A stretch of DNA of 64,000 bases from positions 992,001 through 1,056,000 of the forward strand of contig NZ_AP019711.1 of NCBI RefSeq assembly GCF_010537335.1. The letters run 5' to 3'. The stretch is from Amedibacterium intestinale. GTDB taxonomy: Bacteria; Bacillota_I; Bacilli_A; Erysipelotrichales; Erysipelotrichaceae. This document shows, piece by piece, positions 50,826-57,541 of this stretch (position 1 is its first letter; each line of letters starts with the position of its first letter). The translations under genes were made by a program, and so were the position numbers. The notes under the pieces were generated by a model. That model was not told the origin of the DNA. It worked only from the letters and a program-made list of their open reading frames with translations, and made no database searches.

Positions 50826-51464
50826 TTAACTCATTCGATAATGTCCAACAAGATCTTCTCTTTTTTCTAAAATATCTTCCTCATAATTGAATTGGAAAGA
50901 ATGCTCATGGTGAATGATAAAAGGAATTCCTTTCTTATTTCTTTTATTGGATACAATTCCTATATGATTTTTAAATACAACAATATCTCCTCCCTGCCAG
51001 TTTTTTATATCATAAATATCTGTTGTAAGAGATTTTGCGTTATGATCAAAAAACACTTTCAAATTTCTTACTCTTCGAAAATCAATGTTTTTATCTATAA
51101 TATCAATCTGATATTCTTTTTGGTTTTTCTTAATATCTTCATCTACAAGCTCCATAAGGTCATATCCTGCATCTTTTAAACCAAAGGCTACTACATCGCT
51201 ACATACACCATATTCATCATCCGGATACCCACCACTATAATACTTGCTTTTATATTTTGGCTTTGTAGCTATATAACTTCTTACATTTTGTAAAATATCA
51301 CTTTGGTCATCCATTCCATCTTTATCTTTGTCTATTGTACTTTTATATGTAACAATATTAAAATCTTCATCTGTATATTTCTTATGCGGCAATATATGAA
51401 AACTATTCATAAAATACCAGCATAAAAAAATTCCTGCAATAACAAATCCTACTTTCTTTTTCAT
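50826..51464 (-). CDS. DUF1287 exported protein with calcium-binding-like loop
   Basis: 212 residues: signal-anchor (about 5-22), then a DUF1287 domain with YSGGYPDDEYGVCSDVVAFGLKDAGYDL, NIDFRRVRNLKVFF, WQGGDIVVFKNHIGIVSN and the final HYRM. DUF1287 is an NlpC/P60-like cysteine hydrolase fold; a Cys (GVCSD) and His (NHIG) can be matched. Residues about 45-57, DKDKDGMDDQSDI, fit an EF-hand-type calcium loop, which is unusual for this family. Confidence 0.8.
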   Translation of the reverse strand: MKKKVGFVIAGIFLCWYFMNSFHILPHKKYTDEDFNIVTYKSTIDKDKDGMDDQSDILQNVRSYIATKPKYKSKYYSGGYPDDEYGVCSDVVAFGLKDAGYDLMELVDEDIKKNQKEYQIDIIDKNIDFRRVRNLKVFFDHNAKSLTTDIYDIKNWQGGDIVVFKNHIGIVSNKRNKKGIPFIIHHEHSFQFNYEEDILEKREDLVGHYRMS

Positions 51465-51569
51465 ATTTCTCCCTGCTTTCTTTCTTTTAGATTACACTAT
51501 ACAGGGATTTTATATATAAAGAATTTCTTACATCTTTCATACAAAATGTTTGCCAAAGCAGAAAAAGAA

Positions 51570-51588
51570 AAGCTCCTCATGGGAGCTT
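51570..51588. repeat. Left copy of 19-bp duplication (pyr operon terminator hairpin with T tract)
   Basis: AAGCTCCTCATGGGAGCTT, itself a hairpin, is found again at 53235-53253. On the minus strand this left copy is followed by TTCTTTTT, so the working T tract stayed on this side of the element. Confidence 0.85.
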
Positions 51589-53234
51589 CAGGTTGTTGAC
51601 AAAGTAGTCGACAACCATTTTTAAATATGATAATATAAACACGGCAGAAAGATGACTTCGTAAGCCAAAAAATTGTTGCTCTTTCTGCCTTTTATTGTGC
51701 GAAGATGATATAATTATAATGGCTTACGGAGGAGATTTTATATGGCAATGACAAGAAGAAATAACAAAAACGATAGTATTATATTAAATACAATAGAAGA
51801 ATTAGTACCGCAGGATCATGATATCAGAATGCTGGAAAGCTGTATCGACTGGAATTTTATCTACCCTCTTGTAGAAAATCTTTACAGTGATGTTGGAAGA
51901 CCAAGCATAGATCCTGTGGTTCTTTTTAAAATGATCTTCATCAATATTATTTTCGGAATAGGTTCAATGAGAAAGACCTGCAGAGAAATACAGGTAAACC
52001 TTGCGTATCGCTGGTTTCTGGGAATCTCCATGGATGAAAGGGTGCCAAATTATTCTACCTGGAGTCAAAACTATATCCGAAGATACGGTGACAGTGAAGT
52101 GTTTGAAAAAATATTTGATCAGATATTGAAACAGGCAATCTCTTATGGCTTTGTAGATATGGAAACTGTATATGGAGACTCCACACATCAAAAGGCAAAT
52201 GCGAATAAAAACAAGTATACAGATGAAGAAGTTGAAATTATGAAGAAGATATATGAAAACGATCTGCTGGATGAGATAAACAGGGATCGTGAAGAACATG
52301 GGAAGAAACCAATTAAAAAAAACGAAAAAGAAGAATTAAATTTTGATGAAGAAACGGGAAAACTGAAAAGGGACATACAAACAAAGCATATCAAAATCAG
52401 TAAAACAGATTCGGAGAGTGGCTGTTTCCATAAAGGTGAAAAAGAAAAATGTTTTGCTTATTCACATCAAACATTTTGCGATAGAAATGGATTTGTACTG
52501 GCAAGCGTATGTGTTGCGGGAAACGTACATGACAGCGTATCTTTCTTTTCAGCGTATAAAGTATTAAACGATAAATATATGGATCAAATAAAAAATGTAT
52601 GTCTGGATGCAGGATATATAACACCAGCAATATGTAAGACGATATTAGAAAATGGGCAAAAAATGTATGCGCCTTATAAAAGACCAATGACAAAGAAAGG
52701 ATATTATAAGAAGTACGAGTATGTATATGATGAAGGATATGACTGTTATCTGTGTCCAAATAATAAGGTGCTGTCATACAGCACGACAAACAAGCTTGGA
52801 TATAAAGAATACAAATCAAATCCAAAGGATTGTGAGAACTGTCCTTTAAGAGGAAGATGTACATCATCAAAGAACTTTCAGAAAGTAGTGACACGTCATG
52901 TATGGGAGGAATACCGGGAGGAGGTAATGGATGAGATAAGACATACACCGGAATGGAAAGAAATCTATCCAAGGCGTAAAGAAAGCATAGAGAGGGTGTT
53001 CGCAGACTGTAAAGAACATCACACGTTGAGATATACCAGAGTAAGAGGGCTACAAAAAAATCAGCATCAGTCGCTGATGATTTTTGCGTGTTATAATCTA
53101 AAAAGAATGTCCAGATGGAGGTGGAAAAACCTCTCTAAAACTGTACAAAATCTAATAAAAAGCACAATTTTAAATTATTTTAAGAAAAAAGAAAAGCGAT
53201 ACTTGTTTATAAGTACCACTTTGTCAACAATCTG
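51589..53234 (+). mobile_element. IS1182-family insertion sequence, complete
   Basis: 1646 bp bounded by 17-bp terminal inverted repeats (CAGGTTGTTGACAAAGT, and CAGATTGTTGACAAAGT on the other strand; one mismatch). Flanked by a 19-bp direct duplication that is the terminator hairpin of the pyrimidine operon. IS1182 elements are known to favour such palindromic sites. One intact transposase gene. Confidence 0.93.
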
Positions 53235-53235
53235 A
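51742..53235 (+). CDS. IS1182 family transposase
   Basis: 497 residues. N-terminal DUF772-type domain (LVEDLYSDVGRPSIDPVVLFKMI region, VNLAYRWFLGISMDERVPNYSTWSQN), DDE residues in VYGDSTHQKANANK, VCLDAGY and ERVFADCKEHHTLRY, and the cysteine-rich DDE_Tnp_1_6 segment (CYLCPNNK, CENCPLRGRC). The TGA stop takes its final A from the flanking target repeat, so the end of the gene coincides with the end of the element. GGAGG precedes the ATG. Confidence 0.94.
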   Translation: MAMTRRNNKNDSIILNTIEELVPQDHDIRMLESCIDWNFIYPLVENLYSDVGRPSIDPVVLFKMIFINIIFGIGSMRKTCREIQVNLAYRWFLGISMDERVPNYSTWSQNYIRRYGDSEVFEKIFDQILKQAISYGFVDMETVYGDSTHQKANANKNKYTDEEVEIMKKIYENDLLDEINRDREEHGKKPIKKNEKEELNFDEETGKLKRDIQTKHIKISKTDSESGCFHKGEKEKCFAYSHQTFCDRNGFVLASVCVAGNVHDSVSFFSAYKVLNDKYMDQIKNVCLDAGYITPAICKTILENGQKMYAPYKRPMTKKGYYKKYEYVYDEGYDCYLCPNNKVLSYSTTNKLGYKEYKSNPKDCENCPLRGRCTSSKNFQKVVTRHVWEEYREEVMDEIRHTPEWKEIYPRRKESIERVFADCKEHHTLRYTRVRGLQKNQHQSLMIFACYNLKRMSRWRWKNLSKTVQNLIKSTILNYFKKKEKRYLFISTTLSTI

Positions 53236-53253
53236 AGCTCCTCATGGGAGCTT
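53235..53253. repeat. Right copy of 19-bp duplication (pyr operon terminator hairpin without T tract)
   Basis: Same 19 bases as 51570-51588. On the minus strand this copy directly follows carB but is now followed by the IS1182 end instead of T residues, so it should terminate poorly. Confidence 0.85.
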
Positions 53254-53259
53254 AACTTC

Positions 53260-56200
53260 TTACTTTTCTAGTTCATTCATAGAAATTGTTGTAAAGTTTA
53301 AAGATTCTAATACTTTTAGAATTGCATTTGCTGTATCAAAAGATGTAAAGCAGCTGATGTTATTTTCTGCCGCAACACGACGAATCAAGAATCCATCATT
53401 TGTAACTTCTTTGTCATTTGACATCGTATTTACAACATAATTTACCTGTCCCTGACGAATAACATCAAGTACATTCATTTCATCGCCTTCTTCAGAAATC
53501 TTGTTTACAACTTTTACATACAATCCGTTTTCTTTTAAATAACTTGCTGTCCCAGCAGTTGCACAAATTCCATAGCCGATAGAAGAGAAACGTTTTGCTA
53601 TTGTTAATGCTTCTTCCTTATCCTGATCCGCAATCGTCATCAAGACAGTACCATGATTTGGAATTTTAATTCCGCTTGCAAGAAGAGCCTTATACAATGC
53701 TTTTTCTAATGTAATATCTCCTCCAAGAGCTTCTCCAGTAGATTTCATTTCTGGGCCTAATACTGTATCAACACTTCTTAATTTTGCGAAAGAGAATACT
53801 GGTGCTTTTACAAACACTCTGTTTTCTTCTTCTTTGACACCTTCTTCATATCCCTGTTCTTTTAAAGAATGACCAAGAACACAACGAGTAGCGATATGGC
53901 TCATAGGAACTCCTGTGATTTTGCTTAAGAATGGAACGGTACGAGAAGATCTAGGATTTACTTCCAGTACATATACATTATCATCTTTATCTACGATAAA
54001 CTGAATGTTATATAAACCTACAAAGTGGAATCCTTTCCCAATACGCATACCATAATCGATAATTGTATCTTTTACTTTCTGTGAAATGCTTTGTGGAGGG
54101 TATACAGAAATAGAGTCTCCAGAGTGAATTCCAGCACGCTCAATATGTTCCATTACTCCTGGAATATAAACATGTTCTCCATCACAAATCGCATCGATTT
54201 CCAACTCTTTACCAACGATATATTTATCTACTAGAATTGGTGCATCATGACTGATTTCTTTTACTGCAGTTGCCATATATACACGCAAATCATCATCGTT
54301 ATGTACAATTTCCATTGCACGTCCTCCAAGTACATAAGATGGACGTACCAACACCGGATATCCAATACGATTTGCAATCTTAACAGCTTCTTCTACTTCT
54401 ACAGCGGTTTCTCCTTTAGGCTGAGGAATATCTAATTTATGTAACATTGCCTCAAACTCATGACGATCTTCTGCGCGGTCAATATCTTCCAAAGTCGTAC
54501 CTAAAATCTTAACGCCTCTATCTACTAATTTATCCGCTAAGTTTATCGCTGTTTGTCCTCCAAACTGTACGATTACACCTAATGGCTGTTCCAAATCAAC
54601 GATATGCATTACATCTTCAATCGTTAACGGTTCAAAATATAATTTATCAGAAATAGAGAAATCAGTTGAAACAGTTTCTGGATTGTTATTAATAACAATT
54701 GCTTCATAACCAGATTCACGAAGTGTCATAACGCAGTGAACAGTCGCATAGTCAAATTCTACACCTTGCCCAATACGGATTGGACCACTACCTAATACAA
54801 TGACTTTTTTACGATCACTTCGAACAGACTCATTTTCCTGTTCATAAGTAGAGTAGAAATATGGTGTTGCACTTTCAAATTCTGCAGCACACGTATCTAC
54901 GATTTTATATACAGGAATGATTCCATTTTCTTTACGAAGATTGTATACTTCTTTTTCATCCATTTCCCATTTTCTTGCGATATAGGAATCTGCAAAACCA
55001 TTCTTTTTAATTTCTTTTAAAACTTCCACATCTTTTGGATGTGCCATCATTTTTTCTTCTAAAACAATTAAATTATTGAATTTATGCAAGAAGAAATAGT
55101 CAATTTTTGTAATTCTGTGAATTTCTTCCATAGATTCTTTTCTACGAAGAAGTTCCGCAATCGTAAACATTCTTAAATCGTCCTGCACATGTACTTTTTC
55201 CCATAATTCTTCTGTTGTTAACATCGCAATGTCTTTATTTTCAATATGGTCACATTTCATTTCCAAAGAACGAACTGCTTTTAAGAAACTTTCTTCAAAT
55301 GTACGTCCAATTGACATAACTTCCCCTGTTGCTTTCATCTGTGTTCCTAAACGACGATCTGCATTTGGGAATTTATCAAATGGGAAACGTGCAAGTTTTG
55401 TAACGATATAATCTAATGCAGGTTCAAAACATGCATAACTTGTTTTTGTAATTGGGTTAATAATTTCATCCAAAGTCATACCTACTGCAATTTTTGCGGC
55501 AAGTTTTGCGATTGGATAACCTGTTGCCTTACTTGCTAAAGCACTAGATCTAGATACACGAGGGTTTACCTCAATGACATAGTATTTAAAAGATTTTGGA
55601 TCAAGTGCCAGCTGTACATTACATCCACCACAGATTTTCAATGCACGAATGATTTTCAAGCTGGCATTACGAAGCATTTGATGTTCGCGATCACTTAATG
55701 TCTGTACAGGTGCAACAACCATGGAATCTCCTGTATGAATACCTACTGGATCAATGTTTTCCATGTTACATACAACAATAGCATTATCATTGTAATCACG
55801 CATAACTTCGTATTCAATTTCCTTAAATCCTGCAATACTTCTTTCAATTAGACACTGGTGTACTGGTGATAATTTTAATCCATTATCCGCAATGCTGCGA
55901 AGTTCTTCTTCATTATCCGCAAAACCTCCACCAGTTCCTCCTAATGTATAAGCAGGACGAACGACAACTGGATAACCAATTTCTTCCGCGAATTTTACAG
56001 CTTCTTCTACACTATGTACAATATCACTTTCTGGAACCGGTTCATTAATATCATACATCAATGCACGGAACAACTCACGATCTTCTGCCTTATTGATAGC
56101 TTCTAAATCTGTTCCAAGAATTTCAACACCATATTCATCTAAAATACCAGAATTTGCAAGTTCAACAACAAGGTTTAATCCTGTCTGTCCACCAAGACTT

Positions 56201-56463
56201 CCAAGAATTGCATCTGGACGTTCTTTATTAATGATACGACTTGCAAAGTCTAATGTTAAAGGTTCAATATATACTCGATCGGCAATAGCTGTATCCGTCA
56301 TGATCGTTGCTGGATTGGAGTTAATCAGAATTACTTCATATCCTTCTTCACGAAGTGACTGACATGCCTGGCTACCTGCATAGTCAAATTCCGCAGCCTG
56401 TCCAATAACGATTGGACCGGAACCGATGACCATGATTTTTTTAATATCTGTACGTTTTGTCAT
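53260..56463 (-). CDS. carB: Carbamoyl-phosphate synthase large subunit
   Basis: 1067 residues, full length. Two homologous ATP-grasp halves, each starting with a GSGPxxIGQ loop ([22 protein letters not shown] and [21 protein letters not shown], shown in part), and a C-terminal MGS allosteric domain (about 930-1067). Makes carbamoyl phosphate for pyrimidines and arginine. The ATG at 56463 is used: AAGGAG is ten bases before it, while the ATG at 56472 is only one base from that site. Last gene of the pyr operon. Confidence 0.98.
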
Positions 56464-56464
56464 T

Positions 56465-57541
56465 TTAACCATTCTCCTTTTCCATCAGTTCCATAAATTG
56501 ATCAAATAAGTAATTGCTGTCTTCTGGACCAGGTGCAGCTTCTGGGTGATATTGAACAGAGAAGACAGGATATTTCGCATGACGCACACCTTCTACACTC
56601 TTATCATTTAATGCCTGATGTGTCATAACCAAATCTGTATTTTTCAAGCTTTCCATTTCTACTGCATATCCATGGTTTTGTGATGTCATTTCTACTTTTC
56701 CTGTTTCTAGATTTAAGACAGGATGATTGCATCCACGATGTCCAAACTTCAATTTTACGGTATTGGCACCATTCGCTAAAGAAATCAGCTGATGTCCTAA
56801 ACAAATACCAAATACAACAACTTTTCCCATCAATTCACGAATGGTTTCAATAGCTTCCACCATATCTTTTGGATCCCCTGGACCATTACTTAACATAACG
56901 CCATCTGGATGAAGTGCCAAAATACTTTCTGCACTGGTATTATATGGAACAACGATCAAATCACAGTGTCTTCTTGACAATTCACGAATAATTCCATGTT
57001 TCGCTCCAAAATCCATCAAGACTACTTTACGTCCACGTGCAGGAATTGGGAAAGGTTTCTGTGTAGAAACTCTGGCAACCTGATCATGCATAAGTTCAGT
57101 TGCTTTTAACATTTGAACAACTTCTTCTACATTCGCATCTTCATCTGCCATAATTGCACGCATTGTACCGCTGCTTCTTAATTTACGTGTAATAGAACGT
57201 GTATCTACTCCATAAATTCCTGGAATATTTTTTAGTTTCAAAAATTCATCTAATGTTAAATCACTACGGAAATTACTTGGCATTTCGCAGCATTCTCTTA
57301 CTACAAAACCAAAAACCGCAGGATCAAGACTTTCAAAATCATCACGGTTGATACCATAGTTTCCAATCATTGGATATGTCATCATAACGATCTGTCCACA
57401 ATAAGACAAATCAGACAACACTTCCTGATATCCACTCATTCCTGTATTGAATACCAATTCACCAACCTGATAATTATCGGAACCGAAAGCATACCCTTCA
57501 TAGACACTTCCATCCTCCAAGATCAGTTTTCTTTTCTTCAT
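56465..57541 (-). CDS. carA: Carbamoyl-phosphate synthase small subunit
   Basis: 358 residues. N-terminal CPSase domain ([25 protein letters not shown]) and a class I glutaminase with the nucleophile cysteine in [15 protein letters not shown] (about 240-254) and the Cys-His-Glu partner in [12 protein letters not shown]. Supplies ammonia from glutamine to CarB. Its stop lies one base upstream of the carB ATG. Confidence 0.98.

Follow-up and report, generated by a model that had tools for sequence, protein, structure and literature searches.

An insertion sequence of the IS1182 family has entered the terminator hairpin behind carB and is bounded on both sides by an exact copy of that hairpin. 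The same outcome is found at almost every assessable site of its transposase clade, where the duplications vary in length from site to site and are symmetrical about a hairpin, where empty sites carry a single hairpin, and where many of the elements themselves contain terminator-like hairpins facing inwards. We propose, with a probability of about 0.8, that the transposase takes hairpins, most of them intrinsic terminators, as its target, and that the target would be cut as a cruciform at its 5' feet, with duplication of the whole hairpin as the result.

The insertion behind carB

In the window, i.e., the whole 64-kb stretch of DNA analysed, the 19-bp hairpin AAGCTCCTCATGGGAGCTT is found as two exact copies, at 51570-51588 and 53235-53253. 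The earlier note on this DNA had reported the same hairpin at both ends of an element, and both this observation and the span it gave, 51570-53253, proved correct. No other match to AAGCTCCTCATGGGAGCTT with up to two mismatches was found in the window (0 expected in shuffles) and no further exact copy in the 2.49-Mb genome. The features of the site are as follows.

51560..51569, minus strand: native T tract, TTCTTTTTCT on the carB strand, present solely at the distal hairpin copy
51570..51588, no strand assigned: target duplication, carB-distal copy of the 19-bp hairpin AAGCTCCTCATGGGAGCTT, exact repeat
51589..53234, plus strand: IS1182-family insertion sequence, 1646 bp, with inverted ends and bounding direct repeats, identical at 1646 of 1646 positions to the copy at genome position 1604029
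51589..51605, plus strand: left inverted repeat CAGGTTGTTGACAAAGT
51591..51616, plus strand: inward-facing terminator-like hairpin on the left inverted repeat, tail ATTTTTAAAT, z -5.6
51742..53235, plus strand: transposase, 497 aa, stop TGA completed by a hairpin base
53193..53222, minus strand: inward-facing terminator-like hairpin of the right end, 12 pairs, tail TCTTTTTTCT (53183-53192), facing carB transcription
53218..53234, minus strand: right inverted repeat, minus-strand sequence CAGATTGTTGACAAAGT
53235..53253, no strand assigned: target duplication, carB-proximal hairpin copy, without a T tract on the carB strand, 6 nt past the carB stop
53260..56472, minus strand: carB, carbamoyl-phosphate synthase large subunit

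The inverted ends of the element are CAGGTTGTTGACAAAGT and ACTTTGTCAACAATCTG, with 15 of 16 terminal bases matching, and they enclose a single DDE transposase gene, the one 497-aa ORF. The assignment to the IS1182 family holds, since this transposase scores 415 bits against NF033551, well above the curated cut-off of 270; at the domain level, matches to DUF772 and DDE_Tnp were scored. Its TGA stop codon crosses the right-hand boundary of the element, and the A belongs to the hairpin copy there, of which it is the first base. Rfam gave zero matches over 51000-53800.

On the minus strand, the hairpin copy adjoining carB has no T tract and is followed directly by the element, whereas the distal copy, read on the same strand, is followed by TTCTTTTTCT, so that the T tract is indeed kept by the carB-distal copy alone, as had been noticed before. 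At the reconstructed carB site a GC-rich stem is followed by this tract, which makes the site a predicted intrinsic terminator. A genome of the same genus (G001) has a single terminator hairpin behind carB, of unrelated sequence.

The genome contains seven copies of the element, and all seven are flanked by an exact duplication, each of a different hairpin, with lengths of 19, 25, 35, 19, 21, 20 and 19 bp. Transposition must be recent because the carB-site copy and the copy at 1604029 are identical over their whole length and three other copies are at most one base apart from one another.

The duplication follows the hairpin across the clade

Relatives of the element were gathered from whole genomes of the order and the phylum and from named genome contigs, plasmids and phages; the scan of genome contigs gave seven loci, all in other genomes, and no relative was found in viral contigs. 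The clade considered here is a single transposase clade with the ends CAG-YTGTTGACAAA, and it includes ISEfa7. Element ends could be set at 58 non-redundant loci of this clade, 39 of them with a duplication, and the 37 measured sites are these 39 minus L192, a repeat of one site, and L148, a composite.

Over the 37 independent insertions the duplication is 17-35 bp long (median 21). Its centre coincides with the dyad of the best hairpin (offset 0) at 34 sites and lies within 1 nt of it at all 37. At 22 of the 37 sites the stem score exceeds the 99th percentile of host windows of equal length, taken as the null; by itself it fails to part all targets from the background, and it is the centring of the duplication that discriminates. 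A and T tracts often lengthen the stem past the edge of the duplication, in which case the cut would lie inside the lengthened stem. The transposase frame reaches a stop inside the element at some of the 37 sites and makes use of target bases at others.

The 19 of 58 loci that have no duplication lie for the most part at a contig edge or between two different hairpins, and at L185 and L187 no hairpin was found. Two unlike hairpins flank L014, L069, L073, L086, L088, L093 and L097. In genome G079 two copies with mismatched hairpins are related to each other, the left hairpin of L139 being the right hairpin of L144, and no partners were found for their other two flanks. Copies of this kind are consistent with recombination between copies, for which G079 provides part of the evidence. 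At L071/L141 (Merdibacter massiliensis, G256) the same 30-bp hairpin is present on both sides with its loop in opposite orientation (AAAA versus TTTT), which might be the result of an inversion of one copy.

Hairpin shape as the probable target

A T tract is present on at least one strand at 35 of the 37 sites (on the transposase strand alone at 7, on the other strand alone at 5 and on both at 23), and 25 of the 37 targets lie between genes, no more than 100 nt from an ORF stop. Nearly all targets, then, are terminators behind genes, with T tracts, and the target could be tied to transcription termination itself, through a paused polymerase, an R-loop or a hairpin on the displaced strand, and not to extruded DNA. 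We consider this rather improbable, as there is no clear orientation bias with respect to the T tract (7 sites versus 5 among those with a tract on one strand only) and as the target of L134 is a hairpin without a T tract inside a 491-aa ORF. Because of its position and its lack of a T tract, the L134 hairpin points to hairpin shape, rather than terminator function, as the feature that is targeted, terminators being simply the commonest hairpins. The enzyme seems to pick and cut its target by the shape of DNA, not by sequence or at a fixed length.

Most DDE transposases have a target stagger of constant length. An ordinary enzyme of this kind, with a mere preference for hairpins, would make the match between hairpin and duplication incidental, and a sister clade does behave in this way. 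A tree of 48 transposases places the hairpin-duplicating clade on one branch (support 100/99) and the sister clade, with the ends GAGGCCACTGAAAA, on a separate one (support 100/100); among its other members are IS1182 (L212) and, beside fabI, the element TnSha1/IS1272 (L213). Sister-clade duplications are 8-9 bp long with or without a hairpin: they are centred exactly on the hairpin loop at L117, L199, L200, L207 and L209 and are at most 1 nt off the loop centre at L198 and L211, and no clear hairpin was found at the insertions L205, L206, L208 and L210. For the clade of the carB element a fixed stagger is nevertheless very unlikely, since it cannot yield duplications that range from 17 to 35 bp and are yet centred on the dyad at every one of the 37 sites.

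At the five sister-clade insertions that are centred exactly on the loop, the terminator is split there, and its stem arms now lie 1.7 kb apart, with the 8-9 bp duplication.

Empty sites

Two insertions could be compared with their exact empty sites. For L188, an ISEfa7 insertion in the E. faecium plasmid p2, the flanks joined with one hairpin match 463 of 463 bases (100%) in 15 of 15 plasmids among the matches listed, and the joined-site query gave 60 records with at least 80% query coverage. For L194, in Streptococcus phage Javan87, the joined one-hairpin site matches Javan90 at 466 of 466 bases. Since both empty sites carry a single hairpin, the insertion turns one hairpin into two. In a related species that lacks the element, one orthologous site has a single, diverged terminator hairpin; at a second orthologous site, in G114, the centre is deleted and unalignable. 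For the E. casseliflavus, phiJH1301-3 and YS387 insertions no record spanning the joined site was found.

That the hairpins are part of the element, or that two adjacent hairpins were present before it arrived, is hardly credible, for although some draft copies (L014, L069, L073, L093 and L097) have two different hairpins, the hairpin sequence is unique to each site, the empty sites hold exactly one, and the sharing of a hairpin between the left side of one G079 copy and the right side of another is expected from recombination. The proposal of the earlier note that the element had entered the carB terminator and duplicated the whole hairpin is thus borne out, both by the 37 independent sites and by the single-hairpin empty sites of two of them.

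Proposed mechanism

Wan et al. (2017) drew three outcomes of insertion into a cruciform, in which the element is joined to the 3' feet, to the 5' feet or to the loop; joining at the 3' feet was observed, and joining at the 5' feet was their hypothetical 'pathway b' (PMC5678879). The product of that pathway, an entire stem-loop duplicated at both ends of the element, is what we find, centred on a hairpin at 37 of 37 sites, and cutting of a cruciform at its 5' feet would be the best model for it. According to this model, inverted repeats able to extrude as a cruciform would be the target of the transposase, which would cut at the 5' feet of both cruciform arms, and the 3' ends of the element would be joined to these feet as in pathway b. 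Gap repair would then copy the entire hairpin, leaving one copy at each end of the element, and the duplication would be as long as the hairpin for this reason. At carB, such an insertion would have split the terminator into a bare hairpin beside the gene and a hairpin with the T tract at the far end, and the uninterrupted site would have consisted of one hairpin followed directly by TTCTTTTT. Judged from the insertion sites, the second of the three outcomes would appear to be a firm rule in this clade, and the third, joining at the loop, would be represented in part.

Inward-facing terminator-like hairpins and carB transcription

It had been suggested that read-through from carB would either run antisense to the transposase or be stopped at the far hairpin copy alone. 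This suggestion is weakened by a hairpin of the element itself, located on the minus strand at 53222-53193 and followed by the tail TCTTTTTTCT, which starts 12 nt inside the carB-side junction and has a predicted stability of about -11.6 kcal/mol, against about -9.1 kcal/mol for the native carB terminator. Inward terminator-like hairpins are common in the clade: among 41 distinct elements they are present at the left end in 25 and at the right end in 29, with 0.6-0.7 expected from base-shuffled ends, and the sequences of their stems differ. These internal hairpins are predicted to act as terminators, and carB transcripts that get past the first hairpin would probably end no more than about 80 nt beyond the carB stop instead of crossing the transposase in antisense for 1.6 kb. 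With predicted inward-facing terminators of its own beside the inverted repeats, the element would most likely stop carB transcription a short way inside its border, and its insertion would be close to neutral.

Relation to known systems

The statement of the earlier note that IS1182 members are known to target stem-loops is right as far as IS1272, which targets hairpins, is concerned, but in the stem-loop-replacing transposition of IS1272 the hairpin is lost, wholly or in part, and no duplication arises (PMC5678879, PMC4923244). The outcome described here thus differs from the textbook one. IS1272/TnSha1 and our clade have in common an IS1182-family transposase and inverted repeats as targets, i.e., hairpins, many of them terminators, without a sequence consensus (PMC5678879, PMC4923244). 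The IS1272 transposase may also be without a stop codon of its own (PMC4923244), and the carB-site copy likewise borrows a stop base from the hairpin. In contrast to IS1272, where the hairpin is lost, the clade studied here duplicates the whole hairpin: exact duplications and single-hairpin empty sites are found in place of hairpin removal. The terminal sequences and the branches of the tree (L213 versus group A) also differ. The event at carB is hairpin-targeting IS1182 transposition, but with duplication instead of hairpin loss.

ISEfa7 of Enterococcus and a streptococcal phage element annotated as IS1562 belong to the same clade (44-49% identity), make hairpin duplications of 18-26 bp and differ by sequence divergence only. 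Insertion sequences that target REP palindromes are similar in entering palindromic intergenic DNA, although their targets are described as named repeat families (PMC1525189), whereas any hairpin serves here and the duplication is centred on it. IS200 has its own stem-loop, which stops impinging transcripts (as reviewed in PMC3196728), and the element-borne hairpin described here would stop incoming transcription in a similar way; IS200, however, uses another class of enzyme, and in the present element both ends have a hairpin beside the inverted repeat. In the papers searched, none was found in which duplication of a whole hairpin had been observed.

It may be, at roughly even odds, that the way of cutting a cruciform is a clade trait within one family: at the 5' feet in the first clade, with the whole hairpin duplicated and the target determining the length; in or near the loop in the sister clade, with 8-9 bp duplicated; and at the 3' feet in IS1272, with the hairpin lost. 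The first clade would add inward-facing terminators of its own and would thus swap one terminator for another, remaining near-silent behind genes. As the length of the duplication tracks the size of the hairpin, structure-guided target cutting becomes testable from sequence alone, and the insertions would provide natural evidence that such hairpins are cruciform, or equally accessible, in cells. They also suggest a route by which an element may multiply with little harm, landing behind genes and bringing its own predicted terminators. Some elements of this clade are common on enterococcal plasmids and occur in streptococcal phages as well.

Other features of the elements

In the transposase leader of the carB-site copy (51650-51735, plus strand) a foldback can pair the ribosome site GGAGGAG with an upstream stretch (leader z -4.9), and transcripts coming from outside would be silenced by it. 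We considered this foldback as a conserved feature of the clade and rejected it, as it is strong in near relatives and absent as a general trait across the clade. Two shortened derivatives, L151 (557 bp) and L152 (822 bp), are present in G201. Their ends are intact, as are their hairpin duplications of 26 and 23 bp, respectively; they are perhaps internally deleted or non-autonomous copies.
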